Assembly (NCBI GenBank): GCA_950295325.1
Contig: OX485804.1
Coordinates: forward strand, 26,908,001 to 26,972,000
Length of the DNA: 64,000 bases
Source of the DNA: Polytrichum commune
Lineage: Eukaryota > Streptophyta > Polytrichopsida > Polytrichales > Polytrichaceae
Reading direction: 5' to 3'
Shown piece by piece: positions 7,249 to 35,488 of this stretch (position 1 is its first letter; the number at the start of each line of letters is the position of its first letter). A program made the position numbers and the translations under genes. The notes under the pieces are model-generated. The model had not been told where the DNA came from. It saw only the letters and a program-made list of their open reading frames with translations, and did not search any database.

Positions 7249-7851
7249 CTGTGATGAACAACGCGACTAGTTTAATTCTATGATCCAATAATGAAATTTT
7301 GCGTAGAAAATGAAGACGGTGCATTATGGGGAAAGACGAGGAAGTGAGGAGAGTGCAAGGAAAATGTGCTCAAGGGCACACTTGCGAACGAGCGTTCGTG
7401 AATGAAGGCTGCGGGGGCGGTGCGCATCATTTACGAGCGCTCGTTCGTGAGCGCGGCTACACGTACATTTACGAGCGGTCGTTCGCGAATGAGGTGGACA
7501 GTGGGTCGCAGCCTTTCACGAACGAGCGTTCGCGAATGAGGTGGGTATGCAAGAATCAACATAATCTCATCAACATATACAACATACGAGAAGGGGTCGA
7601 GGGCAGAGAATTTGAAGCAACGCGATGCAGATAACATAGGCTCATATATTAATCCGTTGAATATTTACATTTCTCACGTGATAGTCTATCACATTTTCCT
7701 AAGGCAAAATGATGCCGTGTCCTACAAAACTGTTCGGCCCTAAGGGGGACCGCTGAAGAGGGCTCTCGCAAGGCCACTGGATGTCGATGAAGATAAAAAC
7801 ATCGCGATGTTAGAGAGGTTACGAACGCGCGTTCGTTAAAAAATGGTATTC
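7249..7851 (-). other. Intergenic stretch or long intron with palindromes
   Basis: No coding frame was recognised. It holds one perfect ACGAACG..CGTTCGT palindrome (7821-7836) and four degenerate ones (near 7384, 7434, 7470 and 7518). A GAG|GTAACT donor at about 7861 and an acceptor at 7249 would allow it to be an intron joining the DGQHS gene to the HAD domain. Otherwise it is the spacer between two genes. Confidence 0.5.
7384..7540. repeat. Cluster of degenerate ACGAACG palindromes
   Basis: Four copies at about 7384, 7434, 7470 and 7518 carry substitutions in one arm (for example ACGAGCG or TTCGCGA). Partner changes in the other arm were not seen. The copy at 7518 has GAGGTGGGTATGCA on its right, the same flank as copies at 23446 and, diverged, 27610. 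Confidence 0.75.
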
Positions 7852-10800
7852 TCAGAGGAGAGTTACCTCGTCATCGGGGGGAGGGGTAGCGGCGCTGGAC
7901 CGAGCAGCAGGTCCCTCCTCAACGATTAACGAACGCGCGTTCGTAACCTCCACAGCTGCAGCCGCCTCTGTCTCCATGGCCTCTGCCTCACGCTCCGGTT
8001 GAGAGGCATGTGTCGCCTGGATGCGCAGCGCGTCTTCTTCCTCGGCGCCCAGGTCGAGCGCGTCCATCCTGACATCCTCCATCCACGCCGCATGGGTTTC
8101 TTCCACGTCCATCCCATGCACCCCTGGTGCGTCATTGGGGCTCCCCTGCGTGTCCTCCACAATGACCATGTCAGTGTGTCGCGCAGAGTCATCGCCATGT
8201 CTGTCTACTACCCTGGGGACGACGGTGAAAGACGATGCATCGGTGTATGAGGGCAGTCCTACCCTTGAAGGGGGAGGGGTGAGGACTGGAGGACCTGAAG
8301 ATTCACGAACGCGCGTTCGTAAATCCTCGTCCTCCTGGATGGCCGCCGCCACAGCATCGTGGGAGGTGGTCGAGGGAACCTCTGGTGGCGGAGGAGTGCC
8401 AACAGGCGTGGGGTGGGGCGCCTGCTGGCGGGAAGGCCCTCCGGTGAACATGCCCGGTGGAGGGGATTGGGAGGGGTATCCTCCAGGGAAGGGGTAGGCC
8501 GGCTGGGGGGGCGCCGAGAAGCTCTGCATACGCTGGAGCATGGCGAGGATGGCGTCCGTCTTCTCGTTGGACTGCCTCAGCTCCTCCTGAATTGCGAACA
8601 TTTTCTTGGCATTCTCCTCTGCCGCCTTCGCCATGTCCTCCTTCATCTTTTGCTCGAGCTTGGCGTTAAGCTCGGCGACGGACAACGCCTCCTCCTTGAC
8701 CCGCTTGTTCTTGTCGAAGTCTACCCCCAGCTCGACCATGATCTCCATGTCGCCCTCGTCCTCATCGGAGACCTCGATGATTGCCCCCGGAGGCAGCTCC
8801 ACGTAGGGGGTCTTCTTCATCCTCCGCCTCGTGTTGCGGTACTGGTCCAACGTCGGTCGGGACCGTTGGTCCAGAAGGTCGAGGTTCTCCATCTTGGGAA
8901 CCACGATCGGCCTGGGCGACACGGATGTCGAGCATCCCCCGGGAGTGCCGAATGCCTCCGCTCCAGACGTTCTCGCGGGGAGGACATCTTGGGTTGTCCC
9001 CGCCGACGACCCCGTGTATCCACCCGGAGTCCCTTGCACGTCGGATGGATTTCCCGACGGCGCCAAAATGCGGAGAGGAGTGACGTCCAAGGATCGGAGG
9101 ATCGCCTCGATGTTGTAGGAGGGCGCGGGCTCGTCGTCGTCCGTCTCCATGGCGGGCATGCCTTCGTCGACGGGCATGTTGATGTCCGTCCTCGGGAGGG
9201 ACATGTCCTCCAGGTCCATCGTGGAGGCCTTCGCCCTGTGCACGTGGAAGTCCTCCTCGTCGATGGCTTCAATGAAGCTGTTGACGACCAGCCCCAGCAT
9301 CTGAGATTCAAGCAAATACGTTAGAAAATACGAACGTGCGTTCGTAAACATCAACGACGAGAAACAATGTCATCAAACCCAAGACAAGTTGAGGTGAACT
9401 TTACGAACGAGCGTTCGTAAATATTAGTTGGAGAGCTTACCATCGCAGCGTACATGAACTTGCTGCCGCCACAAACGTTGTACACGGTCTCTCCGCTTAT
9501 TGCCACGCTCTGCAAAACGGAGACGTAGAACTCCAACCTGAGTTCCATCGCCGGGAAGACAGTGTACAAGGTCTCCTGCAGCAGATCCTTGGGAGGGGGA
9601 TGGGGGATGCTGTAGATCTTCTTGAACGTAGTGTTCGCCTTGACAGGGGCTCGCCCATTCCGCAGCGCGTTGTACGTCAAGAAGACGAGGCTGACCGCCC
9701 CCACCTGTTTGTTCCCCCTGGCCTCGTTGATGGCCACGATCCCTTCCGTCTTGGCGGGCACGTAAGTGCTGTGGAAGATGCTGTACTCAAATTTGATCGA
9801 CTTCTCGTACAGGTCGACTACAGCAGAGAGCTTCTCCTGCTCGACTATCCACAGCCAAACGTGAGGCTCCCTCATGTCCGGAGACTTGTGCTCCTTGAAC
9901 TTGGCCATGAAGGGGTCGTAGAAAGGTATGTCCTTCCCCCCCTGCCTCGACGCACCGGGGATCCCCCTGAAATCGATCAGGGCAAATGGGCACCCCCGTC
10001 GATCCTCCCTCACCTCGGCCCTGCTCATGGTCCGGTCCCACTTGGAAAATGTCACCCTCTCCACTCCTTTTGTCAACAGACAAAATCTGGCCACTCCTTC
10101 GAATGTGGCCAACCTCTTCCGCGTCAAAAAGCTTCTGTATTGCTCCACCTCTTGGGGATCCGTCTCGGTTTTCTTTGTCCTCTTGTTCCCCTTCTGCTTC
10201 AAAATGGAGGCGTGCTCCTTGACAAGACAACGCATTGAGGGTCCGGAGATGTTGTAGTCGACCTTGAACATCTTCCAGCTGGCCCAATTAATGTCCCCGT
10301 CGGCTAGGATGAGTGCGTACTCTGGTATTAGGGCGCTCAACTCCCTCATTGCAGCAGTCTTCAGCTTGCGGTGTTCGCACCATTCCTTGATGGAATACGT
10401 GCCGGGCTTGTGTCTTGGCCTCTTCAAAAATATCTTCGGGTATGGGATGGTTCTTCCCACAGTGTTCCCAAGAAGATGCACCGCGCACCTCTGCAACTCG
10501 GACTCTGTTAACCCTTGAAGGGACCTGAAGAACTCCCTCAGTAGTGGAGGGGCCTCCCCGGTCTTCTCCGCGCTGTACTTCTCCTCGGTGTCGGGGTTGA
10601 CCAGATCGCCCGAGCTGTGCGCATCAAAAAATTGTGTCCACAACTCCCAAGTGTCCCTGTTGCAACAGATGAGGCGGAGCTCACCCTTGAGCTCCAGGAC
10701 AGACTTGGTTGTTGTAGACTTCATGTCGATGGAGGAGAACTTGTCCACCATCGCGTCGCAGAATGCCTGCAGCAAGAAAAACATCAGTAACGCACAAAAT

Positions 10801-11661
10801 ACGAACGCACGTTCGTAAGTTTGAATGTCAAAGAACTTGAAAATTTGAATGTCAAAGATATTTACGAACGTTCGTTCGTAAACTCACCTTCCATTGTGGA
10901 GACGGCGTCTTCGCGTTCTCCCTTTCTTTAGGGGGGCACCCGTGGGCGACCCAGACGTCCCTTGCAGCCACTATGTTGGCTGCCCACGACGCCTCGAAGG
11001 CCTTGATTTTGTTTCCGGAGTTGAGTAAGGTGGATATCTTCCGCAGCTTGTCCCAATCGTCCGACCACACCAAGAACGCCTTCCAGTAGCGCAAGTCCTC
11101 CTTCAGCTCATGCTGGAAGTTGTCGTCCTTGAGAATTATTTGGGACGCCTCCAAGCTGTGTTGGCCGTCTATGATCCAGAACTCTCCATTCTGGATCCGT
11201 GGCCAGTCCTTCTCCGTCGGACGGGATGTCAGCCCCTTCGGCATGACGCAGACGGTCTGCCTGTCCCACTTGACGTTGTTCATTAGATTATTTATCTGCC
11301 ACTTCACACCACCGCTTTCGCGAGAGCGAACCACCCATTTGTTGGGGGACATCTCGCACTTGAAGCAGTCCACGTTGAATGTGAAGTGGCGTCCCATGGG
11401 CCAGCAATCCTTCGAGTAGTTGTTGAAGTCTCGAAGGATCCTCGTGGCCTTCACAGCGTCAGGGTTCTCACCCTTTTTCAAGGGGGTGGGCATTACGACA
11501 GGCGAGGTCACCTCTGCGGTCTCCGTTACTCCCGATTTCTCCATCTCCTCCCTTGTCCTCTTCGATGGCGTGGAGTGTCTACTGGGGCCCTCCGTCGCCC
11601 TGCTAGCGGAAGGCACAGGCCTGGGTGCACTTCTAGATCCTCCTGCCCCTGATGTGGATGG
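7852..11661 (-). CDS. DGQHS-motif protein, 3' part (rest of gene beyond inserted E1)
   Basis: Three exon segments on the minus strand: 11661-10888 (258 codons), 10766-9441 (442 codons) and 9300-7852 (482 codons plus TGA). The introns of 121 and 140 bp have clean GTGAG/GTAAGC donors and CTGCAG/TCTCAG acceptors, all phase 0. The first segment is in frame with 22853-22332 across the retrotransposon, giving about 1356 residues in total. FWIIDGQHSLEASQ lies near residue 339; DGQH resembles the DGQHR motif of DndB-like proteins, but no wider similarity can be claimed. The middle exon (..GIPGASRQGGKD, FYDPFMAKF) is unrecognised. The last exon has an acidic stretch, a charged coiled coil (about residues 1075-1135) and a Pro/Gly-rich tail. 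ACGAACG palindromes lie in both introns and twice inside the last exon in frame. Confidence 0.75.
7929..7944. repeat. ACGAACG palindrome inside coding exon
   Basis: A perfect core with CG centre lies in the last exon of the DGQHS gene, read as VTNARS on the minus strand without breaking the frame. The homologous place in the duplicate near 28000 lacks the palindrome. Confidence 0.85.
8305..8320. repeat. ACGAACG palindrome inside coding exon
   Basis: A perfect core with CG centre in the last exon of the DGQHS gene, read as LRTRVRES on the minus strand. It keeps the frame in a low-complexity acidic/Pro-rich part of the protein. Confidence 0.85.
9330..9418. repeat. Palindrome pair inside intron 9301-9440
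   Basis: Perfect cores at 9330-9345 (centre TG) and 9403-9418 (centre AG) occupy the acceptor-proximal and donor-proximal parts of a 140-bp intron. Each is self-complementary and also complementary to the other. Confidence 0.88.
10801..10879. repeat. Palindrome pair inside intron 10767-10887
   Basis: Perfect cores at 10801-10816 (centre CA) and 10864-10879 (centre TT). The donor-side copy starts within a few nucleotides of GTGAG; the other ends about 30 nt before the acceptor. Confidence 0.88.
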
Positions 11662-11666
11662 TTTCC
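11662..11666. repeat. Target-site duplication of E1, left copy (TTTCC)
   Basis: TTTCC directly precedes TGTGAGG at 11667 and recurs directly after ..CTCACA at 22332-22336. Removing E1 and one copy restores the open frame of the host exon. Confidence 0.93.
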
Positions 11667-13767
11667 TGTGAGGCCAAACCCCCCACCCTTAAGCGTCCGT
11701 AGTCCGAGTAGTAGGTTTGGGCTCACATTCCTCCGCGGTATTGGATTTGGACTTGGATGAGTCCATAGTGCAAGGTTCACCCTTCAAGTGGTCTTGGATT
11801 TAACTGGAATTTCACTTTTAACAACTCAATGTACAATTTCAATACGTATGTGGAGAATGCACAAGTTAACTATGTTATTTTAACCTCCTTATGCTCGGGT
11901 GCTATTTTGTCTTTGTTTGCTTCTAACGTCCATCCGGCCGCTTTAGCTACACAAGCCCTTAAGGATATCCCTCTCCTAAATGGAGTCCGTGCCGTTGACT
12001 CTATACTACCACTTGAACTATCACTTGTGTATTCCGTATCGCTACTATAAGAGGTCTCACTTGGTGTCTCCATACCGTACATAAGCCTTTAAGTATTAAG
12101 AAATACTTATGTGACTTATGTCAATCTCTCCCTCGCACCTTTGGTCTTTGCTTCCTTTGTCTTGCCATCGCGAGAGTGCTCCACATTCTCCATTAATTTG
12201 TGCACGTGATTTATTTTTAAAGAGAGGATGCAAGTGTTTAAAAAAACACTATTCTCTATAGTCAATCTCAAATACATTTACTTGTGAAAGCCACCATAAC
12301 ACTAACTAGCATAATGTAACTAACTACTTGTCTATGAGCTAATTAGGTAGGCTATCTACTAAGCTCCTTCATGAACCCATCTCTTTACTTTCTAATTACA
12401 TAAACCTAGCTCCTTCATAAACCCAGCTCCTTCATGAACCCAGCTCCTTAGCTTCTAACTAAACAAACCCAGGTCCTTCATAAACCCAGCTCTTTACTTT
12501 CTAACTAAACAAACCCAGGTCCTTCATAAACCCAGGTCCTTCATGAACCCACAACTTTGTAGTTGTAATCCCCAACTACCTCACTAATTATTCAAGCCCT
12601 TAACTAATCTTCCTACCTAATTTCCCTAATTCTACTAACAACCCCTTTCTAATCACACAATTCTTCTCTAATCCTAAAATCCTAAAATCCTAGAGAGGAG
12701 AGGGGGAGAGAGAATTTCCTAACTTCACTAAGACTAACTAATCCACACAAGTATATTTTTGCACTCATCACAACATCAAGTGCTCAACTCTTAAACATGG
12801 AACTTGCAACCACGTGTATTCAAAACATGAACTTTAAGTACCACAAATTGGAATCATGAATTAACTTTAAAATCCTTCACGTCAACACTAATTCTACCAA
12901 GAGGTCAAGCCCTCTTCAAGGCTAACAAGCCTTGGCTCTCAAACTAAAAACTAAGCACACACATGTGCTCCAATATGGCTTCCCACACCCACACTTATAA
13001 CTCGTGGGGTGCCTTGGAGCACAAAGGAAAGAGAGGATGAGTGAGGGAAGAATGAGGGATTATATAGTAAGCTTGAGGGGGTGAGCACCCTCAAGGCTCA
13101 CGATAAGCCCTTGAGATTTCCTCCTACTTAGTAGGCGCCAATCCTATCTTCTAAGTCTTCCTCCCTCAAATGATCAACAAGGATCCTAATTCGAACATTT
13201 AACTAGCCTTGGCTTTCTACCTACCACACTTTACCAAACTTGGGATGCTTCAACCCAAACTTAGCCTCCTTCGCTTTCCGCCGCCATAACTTTCTCCCCT
13301 TACTTTCCCAAATCGTCGCTCACCACTTAATTCAAACCACGATGCTTAACTCGTGATTTGATTGGTGCTTTGAGAATTTGCTTATCCTCCACCTTGCATT
13401 CTTCCTTGGGCCTTCCCCATTAAGTGGCCATGATGAGGTGGTCCACTTGTGCGCTCCATGTGATCCTCCATTCATCCCAATTCGAAAGCACTTGCCTCTT
13501 GAGTCACTTTGGTTGTCTCCATCCATTTGTACTAGCCTACTCACTAACTACTCAATCCAAGTTCTCCTTACCTATCCTCATTCACTCAAATCCTTCCGAA
13601 GGTAAAAACACAATAACAACTCACATCCTAGCCTCTTACAACATGGTACTTCTAAGACTAACATTTCACTCTTTTTATATTTTTGTGAAGTAACATGCTA
13701 CTTCAAAGTGCATCAACTAACGTTTCAAGGGTCTAAGACTAAATGTGGGCACCCTTTTGGGCTCACA
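11667..13767 (-). repeat. E1 3' LTR, the longest LTR (2101 bp)
   Basis: On the minus strand it starts TGTGAGCCCAAAAGG (13767) and ends TTTGGCCTCACA (11667). It holds a TATATAA box (13066-13060) and a run of 15-17-bp repeats around 12390-12560 (CCCAGGTCCTTCATAAA-like). It is the only one of the four LTRs without an internal deletion and serves as the reference. Confidence 0.93.
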
Positions 13768-13828
13768 TAATTGGCGACCATCGGGGGATGAATCCAAACA
13801 TCTCTTGCTCCAAGGGTAAGTTGCCTAG

Positions 13829-16228
13829 TCAAGCTCGGTACTCCTTACATCTACTTCCCGATGTACGGGTAGGAAAGAGCTCACCATTCAACGTTTCCAA
13901 TTGAATTGAATTATTAGGAAAGACCTCATAGACAAGGTAAGGTCCTAACCATACCGCATCGAATTTCGCCGGAAATTCAAGCTTTCGTGCGTCTTGAATC
14001 ATGACCATCATTCCCGGTGTTAGGGCCCTTCTCTTATGTCGTTTGTCGAAAGTAATCTTTCTCCTTCTTTGGATTGCCTCAATATGTTGAGCCGCCATTC
14101 TCCTCCCTTCGTCAAGTGCTTCCAAATCGGTTAGTCGATTTCGTAAGGATTGACTTTCGGTAAGTCTCGTACTCACGGCCACCCTAAGTGACTCGACTTC
14201 ATATTCGATTGGTAGTGTCGCTTCAAGACCATAGACTAAGGAAAATGGTGTAGCACGCGTAGTTACCTTATAGGTTGTACGGTATGCCCAAAGTGCCGCC
14301 GTTAGTTTCGTATCCCAATCCCGCTTCGAGTCTATAACCGTCTTGCGTAGTATACTCACCAAAATTCCGTTAACCCTTTCCGTTTGTCCATTGGTTTGTG
14401 GGTGGTAGGGAGTAGTCTTCCGGTGATCAATTTTAAATTTCTCTGTCATCTCTCGAATCAAGTCATTCAAAAAGTGAGTACCCCTATCGCTTACTAGGAT
14501 CTTCGGCACCCCGAACCGCGAAATTATGTTTTCGTACATAAATGTTGCCGCGTGTTCCGCCGTGTCGGTCTTCACCGCTTTGGCTTCCGCCCACTTGGTG
14601 AGGTACTCGGTTGCCACCACAATATATTTCATTCCTTTTGAAGATTGGGGATGGACCTCACCCACATAGTCGATGCCCCATTTTTCGAAAGGAATTAAGG
14701 GTAATGATACATGTAAAGGCATCTCCATTCTAAGGTCGTCTCGGGCATACCGTTGGCAAGCGTCGCATTTCCTTACATAGTCATGGGCGTCCTTAAATAG
14801 TGTAGGCCAAAAGTAGCCCGCTCTAAGTATTTTTTGCCCGGTGAGTTGACCCGAGAAGTGACCGCCGCAAGCGCTATCGTGGCAAGCGATTAAAATCGCT
14901 TCAACCTCCGTTTTTGACACGCATCGTCGTAAAATACCATCGGACCCCCTTCTAAACAACCTATGGCCCACTACAACAAATTGCCTACTATTTACCCTCA
15001 CCTTCCTTCTCTCTTCTTTTGTCCACTCTTTGGGCAACTTGTGGGTTGTTAGAAATTCCACTATGCCCGCATACCACTCCGGTGTAGAAGTGACCACAAA
15101 GAGGCTATCATCTACTAACATATCATTTACCGGATTTTTTCCTATCTCCTCCGACAACCTAGACAAGTGGTCCGCTTGTAAATGCATACGACCCGGTTTA
15201 TATTCCACCGTGTAGTCGAATTCTTCTAATAACAAAACCCACCTAGCTAACCTACCACTTAACTCCGCCTTGTTAATTAGATACTTGATAGCCATGTGGT
15301 CAACAAAAAATACAACCGGGTTGCACATGAGGTAATGCCTAAACTTTTTAACGGAAAACACCATGGCTAGGCACTCCCTCTCCGTTGTAGAGTAGTTTCT
15401 TTCGGCGGGGGTCAATTGCTTACTCGCATAAGCTATAGGTTGATCCTTCTCTTTTTCTCCCGTTGCTTGACAAAGCGCACTCCCTATTGCCACATTACTA
15501 GCATCACAATAGACGTGAAAAGGTTTACCCCAATTGGGTGGTATCAACACCGGATAGGTGCTCAACCTATCCCGCAATTCCTCAAAGGCTTTTTGACAAG
15601 CATCCGTCCACTCGAATTTGACATCCTTTTTGAGCAAATGGGTAATGGGCACCGCTATCTTTGAAAAATTAGGAATAAGTTCCCGGTACCATCCCACATG
15701 TCCTAACAACTTAGAGATCCCCTTGGAATTGGTTGGAGTTGCCAAGTCGCTTATGGCCGCAATCTTATCCGGATCGGGTTCTCTACCTTTTTCACTAACA
15801 ACATAACCCAACAACACTCCCTTATTCACTCCCAAAAATGTCTTATCCGGGTTCAATGCTAACCTCATCTTCCTACACCTAACCAATGCCTCCCTAACAC
15901 AATGTAGGTGATCATCCACATTACTTTGTGTGCTAAAATCGTCCACAAAGACGGTCATGGATTTGAACAACAAGTCGGTGAAGATATACATTACTAATCG
16001 TTGGAAAGTAGCCGGGGCATTACATAACCCAAATGGCATCACTACCCACACAAAAGTACCCCAAGGTGTAGTAAAAGCCGTTTTATGGATATCTTGGAGG
16101 GCTATGGAAATTTGATTATAACCCGCATACCCATCCATAAAGGTATATCGCGAATGACCTCCAACCTCCTCAAGCAACAAGGTGATAAAAGGTAAGGGGA
16201 AGTGATCCTTTTGTGTGCACGAATTCAA
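13829..16228 (-). CDS. E1 ORF B: reverse transcriptase, RNase H, integrase
   Basis: About 799 codons. In order: reverse-transcriptase core with FMDGYAGYNQ, MPFGLCNAPATFQR and the catalytic FVDD near residue 95; RNase H beginning at FHVYCDASNVAIG with later ERECLAM and FFVDH; the integrase HHCC zinc finger (GGHF..CDACQRY); the catalytic core with WGIDYV, VSDRGTHF and GQTERVNG (D, D, E); and a C-terminal GPYLVYEV..FPTRTSG segment. The frame is intact. It is one nucleotide out of register with ORF A at a run of nine A. The natural N-terminus (..NGKLRVCVDYRKLNSC) lies upstream of the first usable codon counted here, overlapping the end of ORF A. Confidence 0.93.
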   Translation of the reverse strand: MNSCTQKDHFPLPFITLLLEEVGGHSRYTFMDGYAGYNQISIALQDIHKTAFTTPWGTFVWVVMPFGLCNAPATFQRLVMYIFTDLLFKSMTVFVDDFSTQSNVDDHLHCVREALVRCRKMRLALNPDKTFLGVNKGVLLGYVVSEKGREPDPDKIAAISDLATPTNSKGISKLLGHVGWYRELIPNFSKIAVPITHLLKKDVKFEWTDACQKAFEELRDRLSTYPVLIPPNWGKPFHVYCDASNVAIGSALCQATGEKEKDQPIAYASKQLTPAERNYSTTERECLAMVFSVKKFRHYLMCNPVVFFVDHMAIKYLINKAELSGRLARWVLLLEEFDYTVEYKPGRMHLQADHLSRLSEEIGKNPVNDMLVDDSLFVVTSTPEWYAGIVEFLTTHKLPKEWTKEERRKVRVNSRQFVVVGHRLFRRGSDGILRRCVSKTEVEAILIACHDSACGGHFSGQLTGQKILRAGYFWPTLFKDAHDYVRKCDACQRYARDDLRMEMPLHVSLPLIPFEKWGIDYVGEVHPQSSKGMKYIVVATEYLTKWAEAKAVKTDTAEHAATFMYENIISRFGVPKILVSDRGTHFLNDLIREMTEKFKIDHRKTTPYHPQTNGQTERVNGILVSILRKTVIDSKRDWDTKLTAALWAYRTTYKVTTRATPFSLVYGLEATLPIEYEVESLRVAVSTRLTESQSLRNRLTDLEALDEGRRMAAQHIEAIQRRRKITFDKRHKRRALTPGMMVMIQDARKLEFPAKFDAVWLGPYLVYEVFPNNSIQLETLNGELFPTRTSGSRCKEYRA

Positions 16229-16232
16229 TTTC

Positions 16233-19200
16233 CTATAGTCGACACAAACCCTTAATTTCCCATTTTTTTTTCTTTACTAAGACCATAGGAGAAACCCAAT
16301 CCGTGATTTCCACCGGCTTGATAAACCCGGCCTTCAATAACCTTTCCAATTCCGCTTTCACCAACAATTGCAATTGAGGATTCATCCTCCTCTCCTTTTG
16401 TCTAATTGGCCTCGCCCCCGGAATTAAAGGAATCCGGTGCTCTACCATTTCCCTAGGAATTCCCTTAAGCTCATCGTAGGACCATGCAAAAGTATCACTA
16501 AACTCATCCACCAAATTGCTATACTCCCTAACCTCTTTCTCCCCCAATTTGGAGCCCATCTTCATTTGTCGGGTTTTTCCATTCTTTAATTTCACATCCA
16601 CGTACCGCCAATCCGCTTCCGACACATGTGCTTGCTCCTCTTTGTTCCGATACCAATCGGAAGGCACATTGGGGTAATCTTTCACATCTTGACCTACAAC
16701 TATCCCCGTAGACGTGGTCTTGAAATGTAAAGGCTCCTCCAATTTCGATGACTCAATAATCACATCCTCCTCTTGAGTCCCATCTACATGAATTAAACTA
16801 ACCTCACCCTCTTCCACGTCATCTACCCAAGGTGTTAACCCACCGCTAATCCACTCTTCCTCGGTGAGCACCTCACATGGCTCCAACAATGAGCCCTCTC
16901 CTAAACTAACACTAGGAAATTCACTCCCTAAGCCTACTTGGTGAAATGTAACCATTACATCAACCTCGGACTCGGGGTACTCCCTTAGCCATTGGGCATA
17001 ATCCCCATTATCCCCATAATTGTAAAAATTAGGACCTAGACTTCCCGAGCCCGAATCTATAACAACCCTTTGACCTTCGGGATGGACGACTCCCACCAAT
17101 GCCTTGCCAATCTCATTCTCGTTTAAGTCATCAATTTCCTTCTCCAATGGCAAATACATCTCCTTCTTCATCCATCCTTCTAATGAACCAATGGACACTA
17201 TGACCCTATTACCCTCCGGACCATAAGTGATGGATGGTTTAGGTCCACCCCAATTGACCATAGCATTCGCCATCCGCAACCAAGGCCTACCTAGCAAAAT
17301 GGGAAAGGTGTCCTTGTTGGAGTGCATTTTAATGACATGGAAGGTGACCAAGTACTCCTCACCTCCCGTAGTCATTCTACAATCCTTGATCATCCCCAAA
17401 GGCGTAGTCGAACTTTGATTTGCCATATTTATGACCAAAGGTGAAGGCCCCGTGAGTCCAAGTCCCAATTTTTTCATAGTATCCTCCGGTAGTATATTTA
17501 GACTACTCCCTCCGTCGACTAGCACATTAGGAACCACCTTATCTACTATAACAACTTCTATTTCTATAGCTTTCACGTCTCTTCCACCTTGTGATTGGAT
17601 CCTAGCGGCTATTTTAGCTTTCACCTTCCTCATCCTCTTGTGTACCGGCATTCCCTCCTTTAATGTTTTCCTTGCCGTGGGTGAAATTTCCAATAGTTGG
17701 CCGAAAGTAATATCCGCCTTGAGTGTACTAAGGTCCGCCCACAAGTCGTACCCGGTAGATCTTTCCACCTTAGAATTACCCACTACGTCGAATTCGTCTA
17801 CGGGAACCCCCGGTCCTTCCCATTCACCCACATCGCTATTATCCAAGTCATGTACCGCATTAGTCCTCTCCCTATCTTGTAAAATTATATTTTCCCTCTC
17901 CACATCCTTAGTAGCTCTTCTAGCTACCCTATCCAACTCGGAGAGATTAATCTCTTCATCCGAAGAGTAATTTCCTTGCTCTCCTATTCCTACCTCCAAC
18001 GGGGCATCCCCTCTCCTAGCCCTAGTAGTTACCGCTAGTGCAGGTGCTTCTTCAACCACACCCTTACCCTTCACTAACTCATATGTAATAGCATTGGTGT
18101 GAGGAGGCCATTGACTTTGCTCCTCTCCAATTCTCGTTGGGAGAGGAAGCATGTCATCACATGTGGCCTCCAACACTCCATCCATGAACCTAACATCTTG
18201 GGAGTTAGATGGTCCCGGATCCGTTGGAGGCGCTTGTCTCCCGTTACTACCATTAGGTGGAACTCCTTGTCTATTTTGTATTGGAATGTAACCGGTTGTA
18301 GTTTGCAAGCCCGCCGGTGGATGAAAAGTTTGCCTAGCATTACTATGGTCATAGTATAAGTTAGGTGGCCTAAGTTCATTGGCCGGTACTCCTTGTGGCC
18401 TAGCACCTCGCATATTATCCCTTGCTTGTTGTTGTGGATTAGCCACCGGGTAAGGGACATTAATTATTTTGTCCGGTTGGCGACACGTATCCGAGGGATG
18501 ACTTCCTCCACAATTGCTACAATTAAACTCTTGACCTTCGGACCAACATTGTCCTTGAGCGTGCCACCTTCCACAAAAGGGATGAAATTCCTTCTTCTCT
18601 AAATTTTGGCCACCTTGCCCTCTAGGTTGTGGTCCTCTATTGCTTCCATTTCCATAGTGAGGTGGCGCTTGACCTCGTTGATTTTGTTGAGGTGGGTTAC
18701 CGTTTCCTCTTTGGTCACGGTTTTGTCCACTTCTACAAAATTGACGCGTGTGGCCCGGTTGGCCACATTGGACACACCATAATCCGGAAGAATGCCTACC
18801 CGACTCAACCGGGGGTGGAGGCCCCGGTTGTTGACTCCGGATCATTAATGACATTTGATCCGTGAGGCTTTGCATTTGTTTTATCATAGCCTCTTGGAAT
18901 CCTAGTTGGCTAGCACCTAGTCTTCTCTCAACCTCCTCCAAGTGTGGATCCGTTCTAGGGGCCGGTAGTGCCAAAAGAGGTGCCGGTTCCCTAACCGCTA
19001 AAGGTCGGGGACCGGTGTCCACAATGGCATATGGAATTTGGTCCTCATACTTAGCGGGTTCTACCGCTACCACCCTAGGGCGTATGGGGATGAATTGTGG
19101 GATCAATTCATCCTCCCTTCTCCATAGCCTTTCGTGATCTTTATCCAAGTTTTCAATATCTCTAGCCGCACGCTTGGCATCCGCCAAGGTCAAGGGATTC

Positions 19201-20069
19201 CTTTCTAGAACACCCCTAATAGTTCCGGACTTAAAAAACCCTTGAATGAAAAATTGCTTTAGCGTGTCGTCGTTGAGCATGGTACCCACAAATCTAGTGC
19301 ACACTAAATCAAACCTCCTAATGTAAGCCGAAATTTCTTCCTCCCTTCCTTGCTTCAATGACGACAATGCCCTTAATGCGGTACTTTGACCCACTTCCGG
19401 CCTAAATTCGTTAAGAAACTCCCTTTGTAATTGTTCCCATCCCCTAAAATGTCCCTCGGCATGATCCCGATACCATTCATAGGCTTCCCCCTCTAGAGTG
19501 GTAGGAAACCACACTAACCAATAACCCGGGTCGGTTATGAGGAAGCTAGCCAACCGTTCGATATACCGTTCCATGTGCCGAGAGGGGTCCTCATCCTTGG
19601 TCCCATAAAATTTAGGGAGATGAGATGGCATATCCATCGCCGCTAAATTTTGTGGAACCACAATTGGTAGGCCTCTTGGCCTAACCAATGGGTCTATTGG
19701 AGGTATAGGAGGTATGGGCGGAATTGGGGGTATGGGTGGTGGATCCATCCCCCGTTCCTCGGCCATGGTGACCGGTGAACTATTCAACAATCCCCTATCA
19801 ACTTCTACCGGGAATTCTTCTCTAAGTGTGTAATTTTCCGAAGAAGTTTCACCACTCAATTTGGAGGGAGTGATCTCCTCTTCAAGTTGAGCTCCAAGTT
19901 CTAAGGTGTCTAGAATTGACCTAGTCCTAGGTTCGACGTTCAAACAACTCTCTATTCTAACATTATCTTGTTCTAATCTATCACTGATTTTAGAGGACCG
20001 CCTCTTTCGAGTAGATTTCTCTAGTCCTACTATCAAACTTGGTTTTTGTGAGCGAGTCCTACCTTGCAT
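16233..20069 (-). CDS. E1 ORF A: Gag, protease and start of reverse transcriptase
   Basis: 1278 codons starting at ATG 20069 (MQGRTRSQK). A proline-isoleucine repeat (PPIPPIPP) lies near residue 112, the retrotransposon Gag domain (LPKFYGTKDED.. to ..EEEISAYIRRFDL) at about 150-310, a CCHC knuckle (CVQCGQPGHTRQFC) at 432-445 and a second near-knuckle (CSNCGGSHPSDTC) near 517. The aspartic protease motif VLVDGGSS is near 850. The last ~80 residues are the N-terminus of reverse transcriptase, ending SPMVLVKKKKWEIKG.. where the frame leaves the conserved KKKNGKLRVCVDYRKLN. It differs from the E2 copy at about three residues (G/S near 182, D/N near 343, I/V near 1071). Confidence 0.93.
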   Translation of the reverse strand: MQGRTRSQKPSLIVGLEKSTRKRRSSKISDRLEQDNVRIESCLNVEPRTRSILDTLELGAQLEEEITPSKLSGETSSENYTLREEFPVEVDRGLLNSSPVTMAEERGMDPPPIPPIPPIPPIPPIDPLVRPRGLPIVVPQNLAAMDMPSHLPKFYGTKDEDPSRHMERYIERLASFLITDPGYWLVWFPTTLEGEAYEWYRDHAEGHFRGWEQLQREFLNEFRPEVGQSTALRALSSLKQGREEEISAYIRRFDLVCTRFVGTMLNDDTLKQFFIQGFFKSGTIRGVLERNPLTLADAKRAARDIENLDKDHERLWRREDELIPQFIPIRPRVVAVEPAKYEDQIPYAIVDTGPRPLAVREPAPLLALPAPRTDPHLEEVERRLGASQLGFQEAMIKQMQSLTDQMSLMIRSQQPGPPPPVESGRHSSGLWCVQCGQPGHTRQFCRSGQNRDQRGNGNPPQQNQRGQAPPHYGNGSNRGPQPRGQGGQNLEKKEFHPFCGRWHAQGQCWSEGQEFNCSNCGGSHPSDTCRQPDKIINVPYPVANPQQQARDNMRGARPQGVPANELRPPNLYYDHSNARQTFHPPAGLQTTTGYIPIQNRQGVPPNGSNGRQAPPTDPGPSNSQDVRFMDGVLEATCDDMLPLPTRIGEEQSQWPPHTNAITYELVKGKGVVEEAPALAVTTRARRGDAPLEVGIGEQGNYSSDEEINLSELDRVARRATKDVERENIILQDRERTNAVHDLDNSDVGEWEGPGVPVDEFDVVGNSKVERSTGYDLWADLSTLKADITFGQLLEISPTARKTLKEGMPVHKRMRKVKAKIAARIQSQGGRDVKAIEIEVVIVDKVVPNVLVDGGSSLNILPEDTMKKLGLGLTGPSPLVINMANQSSTTPLGMIKDCRMTTGGEEYLVTFHVIKMHSNKDTFPILLGRPWLRMANAMVNWGGPKPSITYGPEGNRVIVSIGSLEGWMKKEMYLPLEKEIDDLNENEIGKALVGVVHPEGQRVVIDSGSGSLGPNFYNYGDNGDYAQWLREYPESEVDVMVTFHQVGLGSEFPSVSLGEGSLLEPCEVLTEEEWISGGLTPWVDDVEEGEVSLIHVDGTQEEDVIIESSKLEEPLHFKTTSTGIVVGQDVKDYPNVPSDWYRNKEEQAHVSEADWRYVDVKLKNGKTRQMKMGSKLGEKEVREYSNLVDEFSDTFAWSYDELKGIPREMVEHRIPLIPGARPIRQKERRMNPQLQLLVKAELERLLKAGFIKPVEITDWVSPMVLVKKKKWEIKGLCRL
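16256..16275 (-). other. Frame change at A9 run in reverse transcriptase (E1)
   Basis: Nine T on the plus strand (A9 in sense). With eight A the conserved frame KKKNGKLRVC would be continuous. The same A9 is present in E2. Confidence 0.85.
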
Positions 20070-20936
20070 TCCATAAGAATCGATCGACCCTCACTTGACC
20101 ACACATAATCCTAGCAATTCCCCTCTTAATATTTTCACTTGTCTTGGTGTGGTTATAATTTTTTTAGGAGGTGAGGAAAAGAACCTGCAAGCCCACTTAG
20201 GTGAAAGAATCCCAATAGGGGATAGGCATGTTCATGTTAATTTTTTGGTTAAGTCGGAGCATCACCTCCGCACCTTCCCGCAAATTAACACTCACCACAA
20301 TACCGATTGTGAGGGGGTGACCTTCCGAGTAGATTATGTTAAAAGTCGAGGCTTCACCCTTCAACTTCTCACACCATCCACAATTTGGGAATTACCCTCT
20401 ACAACGGATAACAACAATCACGAGTACAAAAGGCATTCCTTAATTAGTTAATGAGTTCACTTTGAAGAAATAAACATACCTTGAGCAATCGCATCCCCCT
20501 GTGAGTTAGCACTCCCCTCAATCGTGACTCAATGTAACAACACCATAAACTTTGTGAAATATTAATTTAATCTAGAGCATGAAATGACAACTCCCAAAAC
20601 TTTGAGACTCACCCCGAGGTGAGTGTCAAAGTTCAATGTCCTAAGGTGAATTTACCCTCTAATGTTTTAATGAGCTACTCGGTTATAGGTTCCTTTTAAG
20701 TTCTTAGCAAATCCCCAAAAAGGTTGAGGACGTACCTTCGCCGCGCTCCTTCCTCAAAAATGAATTTGCGTAATTGACAATGCAATTCATTCCAAGGAAT
20801 AGTTGAAATACAATGAATTCAAATGTAACCCAAAGAGAGAATACTTACCGAGTTTCGGGTGCTCCTTCCCTTCTCTCAAGTTTGTGTCTCCAATTTTTCC
20901 TAGTCGCCTCCAAGTCTTGTAACTACCTTCCGCTTC

Positions 20937-20955
20937 GCTCCCGGCGGACGCACCA
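20937..20955 (-). promoter_or_regulatory. E1 primer-binding site
   Basis: In sense, TAAT follows the 5' LTR end CTCACA, then TGGTGCGTCCGCCGGGAGC, beginning TGG as expected for complementarity to a tRNA 3' CCA end. It is not the tRNA-Met type. The primer tRNA was not identified. Confidence 0.7.
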
Positions 20956-20959
20956 ATTA

Positions 20960-22331
20960 TGTGAGGCCAAACCCCCCACCCTTAAGCGTCCGTAGTCCGA
21001 GTAGTGGGTTTGGGCTCACATTCCTCCGCGGTATTGGATTTGGACTTGGATGAGTCCATAGTGCAAGGTTCACCCTTCAAGTGGTCTTGGATTTAACTGG
21101 AATTTCACTTTTAACAACTCAATGTACAATTTCAATACGTATGTGGAGAATGCACAAGTTAACTATGTTATTTTAACCTCCTTATGCTCGGGTGCTATTT
21201 TGTCTTTGTTTGCTTCTAACGTCCATCCGGCCGCTTTAGCTACACAAGCCCTTAAGGATATCCCTCTCCTAAATGGAGTCCGTGCCGTTGACTCTATACT
21301 ACCACTTGAACTATCACTTGTGTATTCCGTATCGCTACTATAAGAGGTCTCACTTGGTGTCTCCATACCGTACATAAGCCTTTAAGTATTAAGAAATACT
21401 TATGTGACTTATGTCAATCTCTCCCTCGCACCTTTGGTCTTTGCTTCCTTTGTCTTGCCATCGCGAGAGTGCTCCACATTCTCCATTAATTTGTGCACGT
21501 GGTTTATTTTTAAAGAGAGGATGCAAGTGTTAAAAAAAACACCATTCTCTATAGTCAATCTCAAATACATTTACTTGTGAAAGCCACCATAACACTAACT
21601 AGCATAATGTAACTAACTACTTGTCTATGAGCTAATTAGGTAGGCTATCTACTAAGCTCCTTCATGAACCCATCTCTTTACTTTCTAATTACATAAACCT
21701 AGCTCCTTCATAAACCCAGCTCCTTCATGAACCCAGCTTCTTAGCTTCTAACTAAACAAACCCAGCTCCTTCATGAACCCAGCTCCTTAGCTTCTAACTA
21801 AACAAACCCAGGTCCTTCATAAACCCAGCTCTTTACTTTCTAACTAAACCATAACTTTCTCCCCTTACTTTCCCAAATCGTCGCTCACCACTTAATTCAA
21901 ACCACGATGCTTAACTCGTGATTTGATTGGTGCTTTGAGAATTTGCTTATCCTCCACCTTGCATTCTTCCTTGGCCTTCCCCATTAAGTGGCCATGATGA
22001 GGTGGTCCACTTGTGCGCTCCATGTGATCCTCCATTCATCCCAATTCGAATGCACTTGCCTCTTGAGTCACTTTGGTTGTCTCCATCCATTTGTACTAGC
22101 CTACTCACTAACTACTCAATCCAAGTTCTCCTTACCTATCCTCATTCACTCAAATCCTTCCGAAGGTAAAAACACAATAACAACTCACATCCTAGCCTCT
22201 TACAACATGGTACTTCTAAGACTAACATTTCACTCTTTTTATATTTTTGTGAAGTAACATGCTACTTCAAAGTGCATCAACTAACGCTTCAAGGGTCTAA
22301 GACTAAATGTGGGCACCCTTTTGGGCTCACA
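20960..22331 (-). repeat. E1 5' LTR, shortened (1372 bp)
   Basis: It matches the 3' LTR closely at both ends but jumps from the position of 12510 to that of about 13284. It therefore lacks about 770 bp that include the TATATAA box, and it has one extra ~46-bp block of the short repeats. Few single-base differences from the 3' LTR suggest a recent insertion. Confidence 0.92.
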
Positions 22332-22336
22332 TTTCC
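22332..22336. repeat. Target-site duplication of E1, right copy (TTTCC)
   Basis: Partner of 11662-11666. Confidence 0.93.
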
Positions 22337-22853
22337 TGGGGCTCTTCTTCTTCTTGTTTGCCTCAGTGACCACACTGTTGTATTTGGAGATGTTCAATGC
22401 CAGGGCGTTGAATTTCCTTGCAGTCCAGTATGGGCTCAACGCATATTTGGAGAAGAGGCCGTCCAGGTCGAAGTGCTTGGCATCTTCCGCTACGTTATTG
22501 GTGGCGTATTGGTAGGAGAAGGTATTTTTCTGAAAATGTAACAAGAGGTTGATATGATCCTTCTTGTTCTTCATGTCCAGAATTACATACTCCCCCTGGG
22601 CCTCTATGGACTCTATCTCCCACGTCTTCATTTGAACCCACTGTTCGGGCTGGTCCGGTCTTGTCTCCAGCTCGTAGGTGAAGCGCATGCAGAAGAGGCC
22701 GTCCCCGATCTTCTCTGGCAGTGCCGTCCACTCCCCCATGAAGTCTTCCTTGGGGACATAGTTGTCGTTGCCGTTATCGTCTAACACCGACTCTGGGAGG
22801 CCATCGACCTTCACCGCGAACATCTCAATGGCGCTTCTGCTTGATCTTGCCAT
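22332..22853 (-). CDS. DGQHS-motif protein, 5' part interrupted by E1
   Basis: An exon starting at ATG 22851-22853 immediately after a good acceptor (TATTCTGTTGCAG). It encodes 174 residues (MARSSRSAIEMF..) ending ..KKKKSPRK at the retrotransposon. The reading frame continues as PSTSGAGGSR.. at 11661 once E1 and one TTTCC are ignored. With E1 present, the frame runs 16 codons into the LTR (CEPKRVPTFSLRPLKR) and stops. The ATG may be the true start with the preceding intron in the 5' leader, or an earlier exon may exist; none was found. The intron just upstream carries a palindrome at 22885-22900. No known domain was recognised in this segment. Confidence 0.75.
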
Positions 22854-22884
22854 CTGCAACAGAATATAAACAATTAGTGACTTT

Positions 22885-23510
22885 ACGAACGAACGTTCGT
22901 AAGTGACATGCATATCCCACAGACTACGCAGTGTTAATGCGTCTTTGCAATTGATGTAATTATATTTACGAACGTTCGCTCGTAAATGAGGGGTTGCAAG
23001 ATCATATAAATTTTTAGTATTGAGTTTACGAACGAGCGTTCGTAAAAGATATGAAGATCAAAGAGACTACTCGTCATGAATGTGTTTGTAATATATTTGG
23101 TTATTTTTACGAACGATCGTTCGTAAAAGATATAGGTTTTATAGGTTTGGATTCATTTACGAACGTGCGTTCGTAAGTATGTCCATTTGGTCTATCTTTT
23201 CGGATATTTGGTTGATTTATCTTTCGTAAGTACATGTGATTTGTCTTATTGGTGTTCGCAAAATTGTATTTGTTCTTTAGATATTCATAGAGGTTCATAT
23301 TTAAGTTAAGGTTCTTTCTGAGTGATATTTTGAGTATATTTACGAACGTGCGTTCGTAAATATAGATCATCTCAAAGAACGTGGAGTGCGTATTTACGAA
23401 CGCACGTTCGTAAATGGAGGTTCGGTATGCAGTGTATGTCCATTTACGAACGAGCGTTCGTAAATGGAGGTGGGTATGCAGTGTATGTCCATTTACGAAC
23501 GAGCGTTCGT
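22885..23510. repeat. Cluster of ACGAACG..CGTTCGT palindromes
   Basis: Perfect cores start at 22885, 23028, 23109, 23159, 23342, 23396, 23446 and 23495, with a one-base variant at 22968. Full arms are usually TTTACGAACG and CGTTCGTAAA. The centres are AA, AG, AT, TG and CA. The last three form ~50-bp tandem units sharing the flank ATGGAGG..GGTATGCAGTGTATGTCC. Confidence 0.93.
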
Positions 23511-24330: not shown

Positions 24331-26244
24331 CTCTCAAAACTTGCAACAAAACTAATTTAAAACTTCAAGACTAAAAAAAGCAAGAGCTTCGCTCTCTAAA
24401 CGCTCCGCTCCTCCTCTCCTCGAAATGACAAATGAGGAGAAGAGGAAGGGGCGCGGGGAGGTAGGTGCGCCGCTAGGGTTTCCCAGCACCTGCCACGTGG
24501 CACAACTCCACTGGCTAGGGTTGGGAGAGAGATGGGATGGGATGGTATGGGAGGTGATGGGAAGGGATGGGATGGGATGGGATGCGATGGGAGATGGGAG
24601 ATGGTTGTATATTGGAACCCTTCATGTTATTCTCATGCTTTGACATATTTATATGTAATGGACGCGTTTAAGGCATTAACTTGACAAGCTTAGTTCAAAT
24701 ACATGAATTTTACTCGTTTTATTTCCTTAGTACCTCTACATTTGGATTCCTTGTAAACATATTTTAGGAAAATATGCTCAGTTAATTCGTAATAAACAAT
24801 GCATGTCACTCCCTAGGTTGTCAATGTAGAATCCACCCCCAAAGATATATATATGGTGTTTTAAAATATAGTTTATGTAAGAGCTAGATATCTTTCAATT
24901 AATTCGATGGTTCCTCAAATAAATAATACATGCAAAAAAGAATTCATAATAATATGAGATTGCGCAGAGTTGCTATACGATAGGATGTCAATTCAAGTTC
25001 TAATATTAGGTGTTAGCTTGAACTAATGCATTTCTGGAGTGGTCAACTATTTTGCTAGCATCAACTACGAGCTTGCGATGAATGAAGTTAATGCAATTAC
25101 AAGGGTTTTTGAGGAGTCAATATTGTTTGTGTGTGTAATGTATCCTAGTAACAATCTAAAACCTAAACCCAAATACCACATACACAACTTTCACAAACCC
25201 TAAACCCCTAAACCCTACCCCCAAACCCTTACCCTAAACCCTAACCGCAAACCCTAAACCCTACATCCCTGCATCTTTTTATCTTACCAACCTTTCTTAT
25301 ATATGGCCATGTTGTTTTCTGAGGGCAGGTCAAATTGGTCTACCAATGTTGGTTGGATGGAGAATGCTTAATTCCGTTCATAACAACTATAATAATTGAT
25401 AATGATGGCAATTGTCAATTTCACATTCCAAATTAATAGATTTGAGATAAAACTTTGGTTTAAGTGATAAGTGAAATTTCAAATATTCCCACTTTCACCT
25501 TAATAGTTCTGAGTGAAATTTCATCACACAATCCACGATCTTATTATAATAACATGCATGTCTTAAGACTTCAATTTATATCAACACTTTAAGCTATGAT
25601 GATGCACATCCTTCTCATAGGATGCAAAACATATATTAATTGTAAGTACATACTATTGTATGCACCATTCCAAATTAATAGTGCATTTCCCCAAACCCTA
25701 AAAGTCTATTTCCAATAGGACCTCAACTCATTTAATCATGTGTCAACTTAAACTAACAATCGAACAATGCATTCAACTATAAATATCACCAATGATCTAA
25801 TAAACATTTAACCAATGTGTATCCGTACCCTTACAACAAGTGGACGAAAATTCAATTTCCAATAGGACGTCAAACACATAATAATTGTAACTATGATTCA
25901 ACGTTACGGTAGCTAGTATGGTTTCAAGTCTCAATGATCATTACGCTATCATACTATGCAGCATTACAAATTGATTAATCCTTCCTACTCATGCCATTTT
26001 AATTCCTTATTTTCACACCTAGATACCATTTGAAAGAAGACCTAACTTACATATATTATTAGGTATAATTAGTTCATAGTGTCCTCAATCTACCCTAGTG
26101 CAAGCCATTATGGATTAACCCGATTTTTTAGTTGTATTCATGCACTTGGTGACCATATTACGGTCATTTTTTGATGTGAAACATATGATACCTATAATTT
26201 TAGGGGCGTCCGCAACATGTTTCTTAGCCACTCTGACCTCATTG

Positions 26245-26287
<43 letters not shown>

Positions 26288-26402
26288 CTATGACTTCGAC
26301 ATTCATAACTTTATTAGGCATCAATTGTCAATTAACTTGGACTTCATACCTTAGTCGCAAATCATTAAATATTCAATGTTAACCATCTCCATATTTAGAC
26401 AT

Positions 26403-26445
<43 letters not shown>

Positions 26446-26834
26446 GTATATACATATATTTCGATGAGACCTTGGTCACAACTAAGGTGTGCAACCGATT
26501 TATATATTTTCAATATGTTGGCGTGCATGCAAGGCATGTTCCATACATGACAATGCTATTTATATAATTCCGCATGGATGGAATGGGAGATTGTTAGGTC
26601 AAAGAAGGCGGCGGGAATCTGCTTTTTAAAAAGCATCCAAGGGATTTTGAACCAGCGGGGTGAAGTACTTAAAGCTCTTCCCCCCACAACAAAGCTCTTT
26701 TCAGCGGCACATGCAAGTGTGCGCTCTACAGACCTCACCGAACGCGCTCAAGCCATTTCGTGTGCGCCAACCCTACACCACCCAGGTACAGTACAGGCTG
26801 TACCTACCGCATATACCGCCGTAAATACCGGAAC
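24331..26834. other. AT-rich non-coding spacer with microsatellites
   Basis: It contains a GATGG-type microsatellite (about 24532-24605), a telomere-like stretch (separate entry), TG/TA runs (about 26244-26288) and a TA run (about 26409-26447). No coding frame, RNA gene or known element was recognised in the remainder. Confidence 0.55.
25192..25264. repeat. Degenerate plant-type telomeric (CCCTAAA) stretch
   Basis: About ten copies of AACCCTAAA-like heptamers and variants (ACCCTACC, ACCCTTACC). It is an internal array, not a chromosome end, because unique sequence continues on both sides. Confidence 0.75.
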
Positions 26835-26837
26835 TTT

Positions 26838-27625
26838 ACGAACGCACGTTCGTAAAGATGAAGAGCTTCAGGTTTAGACAAACGATTCGGACCTGGACAT
26901 GGCAAGGATTTACGAACGCGCGTTCGTAAATTCCACATGAGAGCATGTTCTGGATTGGGCTACTCATATGGATAGTCACATGCACGTAATCCATCTCAGT
27001 TATTTACGAACGTGCGTTCGTAAATATGCCTTCGAGGACCATGCAGACATATTTGACCCTTATCTATTGGTACCTGATGGTCGGTAATTTACGAACGTGC
27101 GTTCGTAAATCCCACAGGAGATCATGTTTTGGATTGAGCTACTCATGGATAGTCACATGCACATCATCCATGGCATTTATTTACGAACGTGCGTTCGTAA
27201 ATATGCCTTCGAGTTTCATACATACATATTTGACCCTTGTCTATTGGTACCTGTTGGTCGGTAATTTACGAACGTGCGTTCGTAAATCCCACATGAGAGC
27301 ATGTTCTGGATTGAGGTACTCATATGGTTAGTCACATGCACTTAATCCATGACAGTCATTTACGAACGTGCGTTCGTAAATATGCCTTCGAGGATCATAC
27401 ATACTTATTTGACCCGTATCTATTGTTACCTGATGGTCGGGAATTTACGAACGTTCGTTCGTAAATACATGTCATTATTGTCTACGCATCCAGCAACACA
27501 TCTTCATTCATGCACATCAGTATGGCAGTAATTTACGAACACAGAATAGCAAGAAAAATATGCTCATCGCTCGTCCGTGAAGGATGTGAACACGGGGTCG
27601 CACCCATTTACGAACGTCCGTTCGT
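26838..27625. repeat. Tandem array with two palindromes per ~178-bp unit
   Basis: Perfect cores start at 26838, 26912, 27006, 27091, 27183, 27268, 27362, 27447 and 27610, with a half-site at about 27534. From 26912 the spacing alternates about 93 and 85 bp, so the unit is ~178 bp and carries two different inter-palindrome segments (..CATGTTCTGGATTGAG.. and ..GCCTTCGAGG..CTATTGGTACCTG..). About 3.3 units. Confidence 0.93.
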
Positions 27626-28030
27626 AAATGGGTAGGTACGCAAAAGTCAACATAATCAAATTCACAATATGGAGGTGCTCAGTGTTCAAAATATTGTTGG
27701 AGTTGATTCAGGCATCATCTGCAGATTTGCTAATTTTGTGCGTATGGACAAGTGTTCTCTTGTGATAGTATATCGCGCAGGTTCCTAAGTCAACATGGTA
27801 CTTTGACCTACAAAACCGATATTCCTCAGGGTGCTCTCATTTGAGGGATCTCGAAGGCCGCCGGATGTACATGGAGAAGTTACTGAGGTCACGAACGCGC
27901 GTTCGTAAATGCATGTGGCGTTCTCGGATTTCTGATTTCGTCGTCGGTTGTATGTGGACAGGCGCTGGTCCGAACAGCAGGGCCCTCCTGGACGACTAAC
28001 GAGTGTTCTCCTCTTTGTCCATGTATTGTT
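27570..28030 (-). pseudogene. Decayed duplicate of the DGQHS gene 3' end
   Basis: The plus-strand text runs parallel to about 7480-7990: GGGTCGCA.., GTGATAGT.TATC.C, CCTACAAAAC, GGGCTCTC / GTGCTCTC, GGCC.CCGGATGT, GAGGT.ACGAACGCGCGTTCGT, then GGCGCTGG.CCGA.CAGCAGG.CCCTCCT. Palindromes at 27610 and 27891 correspond to those at 7518 and 7821. The coding match is short and broken, so this is a remnant. The in-exon palindrome at 7929 has no counterpart here. Confidence 0.72.
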
Positions 28031-30758: not shown

Positions 30759-30762
30759 TAAT

Positions 30763-35484: not shown

Positions 35485-35488
35485 GAAA

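Follow-up and report, generated by a model that had tools for sequence, protein, structure and literature searches.

Palindromes within and around a Polytrichum commune gene as candidate cis sites for its own predicted ParB-type methyltransferase protein

The ParB-parS and KorB systems of bacteria employ short palindromic sites, several of which are found per locus, and short mobile palindromes occur in bacteria and fungi. In phages, the pairing of a ParB-CTPase with an N6_N4 methyltransferase is reported to be frequent (PMC12704722), and a gene encoding a ParB-like protein with an N4C/N6A DNA methyltransferase (1104 aa) is contained in the DNA transposon Sola1-1_Ec32 of the brown alga Ectocarpus (PMC12477816). 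Such ParB-methyltransferase proteins, for which that paper also cites red and green algal cases, were suggested to bind and modify their own element (PMC12477816). The strings 'palindrom' and 'binding site' do not occur in the text of that paper, and the former is absent from PMC12704722, so that no such set of sites is described there. The open-access literature searched contained no report of sites for eukaryotic ParB-methyltransferase proteins, with PMC12477816 being the only paper found in them on such genes in eukaryotic transposons. Here we describe a family of palindromes in a 64,000-nucleotide stretch of DNA from Polytrichum commune (GCA_950295325.1, contig OX485804.1, positions 26,908,001 to 26,972,000, hereafter termed the window), which is found in and around a gene for a large protein with a predicted ParB-type and a predicted methyltransferase fold. 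In more distant relatives, both arms appear to change together, which suggests that this protein recognizes its own gene.

A pattern scan of the window for ACGAACGNNCGTTCGT returned 25 perfect matches, all located within 7821-27906, compared to none in 100 dinucleotide shuffles of the same sequence (mean 0.00, largest 0). This agrees with a preliminary description of the stretch, which had reported at least 25 copies with eight freely varying centres and had proposed a comparison with a shuffled expectation. The centre dinucleotides of the perfect sites are TG (8), CG (5), AG (4), CA (3), TT (2), AA, AT and TC (one each). As claimed in the same description, copies are present on both sides of an element, which we take to be the Ty3/gypsy long terminal repeat (LTR) element at 11667-22331, with none inside; its start of the family at 7384, by contrast, is a one-mismatch site, and perfect sites begin at 7821. 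The 36 kb that follow 27906 contain no perfect site, nor does any other part of the window outside the gene, its flanks and the region of a truncated second copy. In 16 of the 25 sites, the symmetry extends at least three letters past the 7-nt arms. Half-sites are rarely found by themselves: of the 30 occurrences of ACGAACG, 26 fall within the 25 perfect sites (two overlapping in one site), and counting either orientation, seven half-sites lie outside of perfect sites, where 1.3 and 1.7 would be expected for the two words. A scan allowing up to three mismatches listed 37 matches, some of which represent a shifted register over perfect sites, with the others including single sites at 6106 and 22968 and a group of four decayed ones at 7384-7518.

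The arms of these palindromes are constrained. When six near-sites are added to the 25 perfect ones, all 62 half-sites have the same C and G letters at arm positions -1, -2, -5 and -6 relative to the centre, a count that is biased since the 31 sites were picked by similarity. A less biased test is provided by a tandem array of 179-bp units, where, in three aligned units, none of the 44 arm columns vary compared to 26 of 131 flank columns (Fisher p = 4e-4, treating columns as independent), which bears out the earlier remark that the arms hardly vary. The same description had noted that flanks are often unrelated and that not all copies arose by simple tandem duplication. In an ungapped comparison of 30-nt flanks, nine of the 25 sites clearly share flanks, namely the seven in the 179-bp array and those at 23446 and 23495, while sharing is only marginally above the null for 22885 and 23028, leaving 14 without shared flanks. 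Of these 14, the site at 23396 is part of the 49-bp array that also includes 23446 and 23495, and those at 7821 and 27891 are counterparts of each other; at least 10 of the 25 sites are tandem-duplicated. Given these arrays and the counterparts in the two gene copies (7821 and 27891), the number of independent palindromes is clearly below 25.

The gene is encoded on the minus strand from 22853 to 7852, with its first coding exon split by the LTR element, and would give rise to a protein of about 1,356 residues if translation starts at the ATG at 22853. Sorted by position, two perfect sites are located in each intron, two in exon 3, one in the 3' flank and eight upstream of the first coding exon (22885-23495), while the remaining ten, from 26838 to 27891, are counted with the 3' end of a truncated second copy (Table 1). 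Because the LTR element interrupts a coding exon, the copy in the window may itself be inactive. In one pairwise comparison, the truncated second copy contains no full site matching the one at 7929, at whose place the similarity between the copies fades. Since the site is lost where all similarity fades, this does not constitute a clean excision, and, since the fading falls within the place of the palindrome, it is possible that a rearrangement breakpoint in the region of the second copy (27568-28010) sits within a palindrome.

To place the sites in the context of the protein family, relatives were collected in three protein searches of public genome and metagenome data, which returned 63, 31 and 31 predicted proteins, together 124 different ones, none carrying a name beyond 'hypothetical protein'. 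Palindromes in these relatives were deduced from peptides. Many of the predicted proteins read on past a splice donor, so that their last residues are translated intron, and these tails contain the readings YERxFV, LRTxVRK and FTNxRS, which correspond to the three reading frames of the palindrome. An initial scan of whole proteins for peptides compatible with any palindrome with 10-nt arms gave 310 matches among 157,728 positions. As many of these fell within the bodies of exons, the scan was too unspecific, and the test was then limited to intron tails and to arms that end in CG, which was decided post hoc after inspection of the data. With this restriction, 46 of 62 intron-start tails contain a peptide that fits a palindrome with 9-nt arms ending in CG (mean 1.8, maximum 8 in 200 shuffles), whereas 16 do not. 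Of the tails tested, all with eight or more letters, 41 follow exon 2 and 21 follow exon 1, with 13 boundaries with shorter tails, the 31 exon-3 relatives and 18 of the first 93 relatives, in which no boundary was recognised, set aside. Among 17 acceptor-side stretches, two of which are wrongly included exon sequence, six pass with 8-nt arms (shuffles mean 0.46, maximum 2), one of them probably by chance, and three when the arms are extended to 9 nt (mean 0.2, maximum 2).

Individual places appear to be shared as well. Directly after the donor of intron 1, a palindrome peptide is found in eight of 13 clade I rows, with a decayed form recognised by eye in four more. In exon 3, the place of the site at 8305 reads L-R-T-x-V-R, with R, V and R being invariant and T present in 17 of 18 aligned rows, and the identity of x to the window row is 0.59 compared to 0.94-1.0 for its neighbours. 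The place of the site at 7929 reads T-N-x-R-S, with T in 16 of 18 rows and two rows without a reading in that frame. At either place, it is thus the codon spanning the centre dinucleotide that specifies the more variable residue.

The sequence of the arms seems to differ between clades. Relatives whose identity is about 52-56% over exon 2 and about 43% over exon 1 carry the peptides FTDARP, FTDVRP, YGRASV, LRPRGRK and LTAGRP at the matching place, which imply TTTACGGACG-NN-CGTCCGTAAA or TTTACGGCCG-NN-CGGCCGTAAA. Those with 35-39% identity carry FGSIDPN, SLGRSTQT, VWVDRPK, VSVARPK, SFGRPTET and FGPVGPN, implying GTTTGGGTCG, GTTTCGGTCG or TTTGGGCCG arms. In the two more distant clades, both arms thus appear to have changed together (ACGGACG/CGTCCGT, ACGGCCG/CGGCCGT and GGGTCG/CGACCC), and all deduced variants stay palindromic around CG-NN-CG. 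The types across clades are ACGAACGNNCGTTCGT, ACGGACGNNCGTCCGT, ACGGCCGNNCGGCCGT and the GGGTCG/CGACCC type. When the four arm types are mapped on a tree built from 50 exon-2 proteins, from which intron tails were removed and where 23 rows were hand-labelled from frames that distinguish the arm types, four changes are required, compared to a mean of 11.3 after shuffling with none of 200 as low, and two if both clade II types are merged. Types I and III each occupy one side of a supported branch, while within clade II the tree does not separate the two types cleanly. As a separate observation, the one-mismatch palindrome at 6106 mixes clade I and clade II arms and is located near an open reading frame (ORF) on the minus strand (6481-7164) that encodes a phosphatase domain of the NLI-interacting-factor-like type (Pfam NIF, E 2e-13).

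The N-terminal domain of the protein is predicted to be of the ParB type by fold match, and a second predicted fold corresponds to an N6/N4 methyltransferase. In an alignment, the places of the methyltransferase motifs read by eye as DFRxIPG and NVFGGSKFM, which are unusual and appear degenerate. The window protein has GQHS where ParB has GERR. Weak matches to DUF6551 were obtained for eight of 24 rows, the best with E 0.012. Searches of solved structures with sequence profiles returned nothing meaningful, and no helix-turn-helix was identified in the protein. Pfam scans of a subset of the ORFs in the window (10 and 9 queries, one used twice) revealed neither a ParA nor a DNA-transposon transposase domain, and a comparison of the stretches flanking the LTR element (E 1e-3) detected no terminal inverted repeat, although short ones or ends outside the window could escape.

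The locus thus compares to described systems in several respects. It resembles bacterial ParB-parS and KorB operators in its several short palindromes per locus and a protein with a predicted ParB fold, but the gene is eukaryotic and contains introns, its sites extend into its own introns and an exon, and no ParA was seen in the ORFs scanned and no helix-turn-helix in the protein. As in the algal transposon proteins, both predicted domains are combined in one large eukaryotic protein, a likeness drawn by domain description; unlike in the Sola1 case, we find candidate cis sites and degenerate-looking methyltransferase motifs, and no transposase or element ends were found within the searches described above. 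Phage fusions of a ParB-CTPase with an N6_N4 methyltransferase, as well as DUF6551 fusions, differ from the window gene, which has introns. In viral_contigs, three scans with arm-type patterns were empty and two protein-based scans gave no relative, whereas a scan of genome_contigs for TTACGAACGNNCGTTCGTAA returned four records from different bacteria with one site each, which we regard as chance. The palindrome also contains the string pattern of the gram-positive LexA (SOS) box, CGAACNNNNGTTCG, an identity that was dropped in view of the eukaryotic host and the arms differing between clades, with the match ascribed to chance.

In light of the paired half-sites, the free centre and fixed arms, the shared positions, the symmetric change between clades and the predicted ParB and methyltransferase folds, we consider it about an even prospect that the palindromes are parS-like or operator-like cis sites for the dimeric protein encoded by their own gene. 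One subunit would recognise each half-arm, with the two-base centre left unread, and the presence of many sites in introns, exon and flanks would allow the protein to be loaded along the copies of its own gene, which would mark these copies, regulate them or both. The split between clades would then reflect a protein and sites that diverged together while retaining the palindromy and the CG-NN-CG middle. The sites, their places, the arm constraint and the free centre are read directly from the window sequence, whereas the dimeric mode and the binding by the own protein, like any influence on expression, methylation or mobility, are what we infer from these features. The dimeric site raised in the preliminary description is the best supported of its proposals. 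Three points qualify the evidence. The ParB-type fold is shared with sulfiredoxin, the contrast between x and its neighbours at the place of 7929 is weak (0.76 compared to 0.82-1.0) and the independent copies number fewer than 25, all of which we judge small beside the main evidence and which leave our assessment unchanged. Both introns, folded without the last three bases for intron 1 and the last four for intron 2, adopt structures with their own two palindromes paired (z -2.1 and -3.3, with 6 and 1 of 200 shuffles folding equally well).

This last finding would be expected if the palindromes act as RNA, where those at intron ends pair in the pre-mRNA to join splice sites and aid splicing, and their arms co-change for pairing. 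Palindrome-compatible peptides near both intron ends of relatives are in line with such a role, which continues the hairpin proposed earlier. Still, intron-end pairing requires complementary arms and not a palindrome at each end, and it leaves unexplained the two conserved sites in exon 3, where pairing would connect exon to exon, and those in the 3' flank and in the tandem array beyond the truncated copy. We thus view an RNA element as unlikely. Alternatively, the gene could be cargo of a large DNA transposon, with the palindromes serving a separate transposase in the manner of subterminal repeats. Giant DNA transposons of algae are reported to include ParB-methyltransferase genes (PMC12477816), and dense sites are found in both flanks of the gene. 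The lack of a transposase domain in the ORFs scanned and of a terminal inverted repeat across the LTR-element flanks, at the threshold given above, speaks against it. Subterminal repeats are not typically located inside exons or at intron ends, so that the placement of sites in exon 3 and at intron ends is atypical, and we find this origin rather improbable.

The preliminary description had also compared the sites to very short mobile palindromes, which would insert anywhere and be kept where harmless. The locus shares with those of bacteria and fungi its conserved arms and its occurrence within coding sequence, the flanks are unrelated at many sites and the truncated copy has no full counterpart of 7929. 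In contrast to mobile palindromes, the sites occupy shared positions in relatives, as described for the intron 1 donor and for exon 3 at both places, and they are linked to a single gene family, with the 25 sites confined to its copies and their surroundings and none in the LTR element or the 36 kb beyond 27906; the loss of 7929 coincides with a general fading of similarity. We therefore find this proposal unsupported and very improbable. That the sites are a functionless satellite or duplication by-product has next to no likelihood despite the at least 10 of 25 in short tandem arrays, as it is already contradicted by intron and exon copies conserved in relatives and by arms that are invariant where the unit flanks vary, and, with 14 sites lacking shared 30-nt flanks, the palindromes do not reduce to one satellite unit.

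The window contains further repeats. The palindrome in a 139-bp satellite at 1208-3050 is a different one, again with two bases at its centre (GACCCTCTCGG-AA-CCGAGAGGGTC), of which a lone copy with centre TT is located at 3234-3255 outside the array. A 48-bp tandem repeat in 27 copies with a 301-codon open frame spans 3687-4980, an internal array of AAACCCT-type repeats, which resemble plant-type telomere repeats, is found at 25194-25263, and a fourfold 229-bp tandem repeat overlaps an ORF resembling reverse transcriptase/RNase H at 48774-49685. A second, inverted LTR element resides at 29117-39694 and contains an 8429-bp arm that is 100% complementary to the first, with LTR lengths being unequal within each of the two elements as judged from matching 40-mers.

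Table 1. Positions of palindromes, gene parts and associated elements in the window.
Feature	Position	Strand	Remark
Palindrome, centre CG	7821..7836		3' flank of gene
Palindrome, centre CG	7929..7944		in frame, exon 3 (TNARS)
Palindrome, centre CG	8305..8320		in frame, exon 3 (RTRVR)
Palindrome, centre TG	9330..9345		intron 2, acceptor side
Palindrome, centre AG	9403..9418		intron 2, donor side
Palindrome, centre CA	10801..10816		intron 1, acceptor side
Palindrome, centre TT	10864..10879		intron 1, donor side
Palindrome, centre AA	22885..22900		about 30 nt upstream of acceptor before exon a
Palindrome, centre AG	23028..23043		5' region
Palindrome, centre AT	23109..23124		5' region
Palindrome, centre TG	23159..23174		5' region
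Palindrome, centre TG, 14-nt arms	23342..23357		5' region
Palindrome, centre CA	23396..23411		49-bp repeat unit
Palindrome, centre AG, 14-nt arms	23446..23461		49-bp repeat unit
Palindrome, centre AG	23495..23510		49-bp repeat unit
Palindrome, centre CA	26838..26853		placed with 3' flank of truncated second copy by position only
179-bp tandem array, seven perfect palindromes	26908..27466		placed with flank of second copy by position only
Palindromes of 179-bp array	26912, 27006, 27091, 27183, 27268, 27362, 27447		centres CG, TG (five), TT
Palindrome, centre TC, 15-nt arms	27610..27625		counterpart of 7518
Palindrome, centre CG	27891..27906		counterpart of 7821
Four decayed palindromes (7384, 7433, 7471, 7518)	7384..7533		1-2 mismatches, 3' flank
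One-mismatch palindrome	22968..22983		5' region
Exon a (first coding exon, part 1)	22337..22853	-	from translation and alignment to relatives; AG acceptor just upstream
Exon b (first coding exon, part 2)	10888..11666	-	predicted ParB-type fold with ..IIDGQHSLEAS..
Intron 1, GT-AG	10767..10887	-	palindrome towards each end
Exon 2	9441..10766	-	second half is predicted N6/N4 methyltransferase fold
Intron 2, GT-AG	9301..9440	-	two palindromes, one towards each end
Exon 3	7852..9300	-	coiled-coil-like stretch, variable tail, two in-frame palindromes
Ty3/gypsy LTR element in first coding exon	11667..22331	-	5-bp duplication TTTCC at 11662-11666 and 22332-22336
Second gene copy, 3' remnant	27568..28005	-	65% DNA identity (27568-28002 vs 7476-7932); 24-residue stretch near C-terminus recognisable

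As a broader and more tentative proposal, which we consider possible but doubtful, the family might represent a eukaryotic self-recognition code, where selfish or domesticated genes carry palindromic addresses specific to each clade in introns, coding sequence and flanks, which co-diverge with the protein so that each clade would mark and control only its own copies. The candidate sites at this locus would supply the partner that is missing from the self-binding proposal made for algal transposon proteins. Since the locus offers a concrete candidate target of 16 to 22 bp together with natural variants and their matched proteins, this proposal becomes directly testable. If true, it would amount to parS-like self-addressing in a eukaryotic nucleus and would provide natural pairs of proteins and sites for studying how specificity changes in a dimeric DNA-binding protein.

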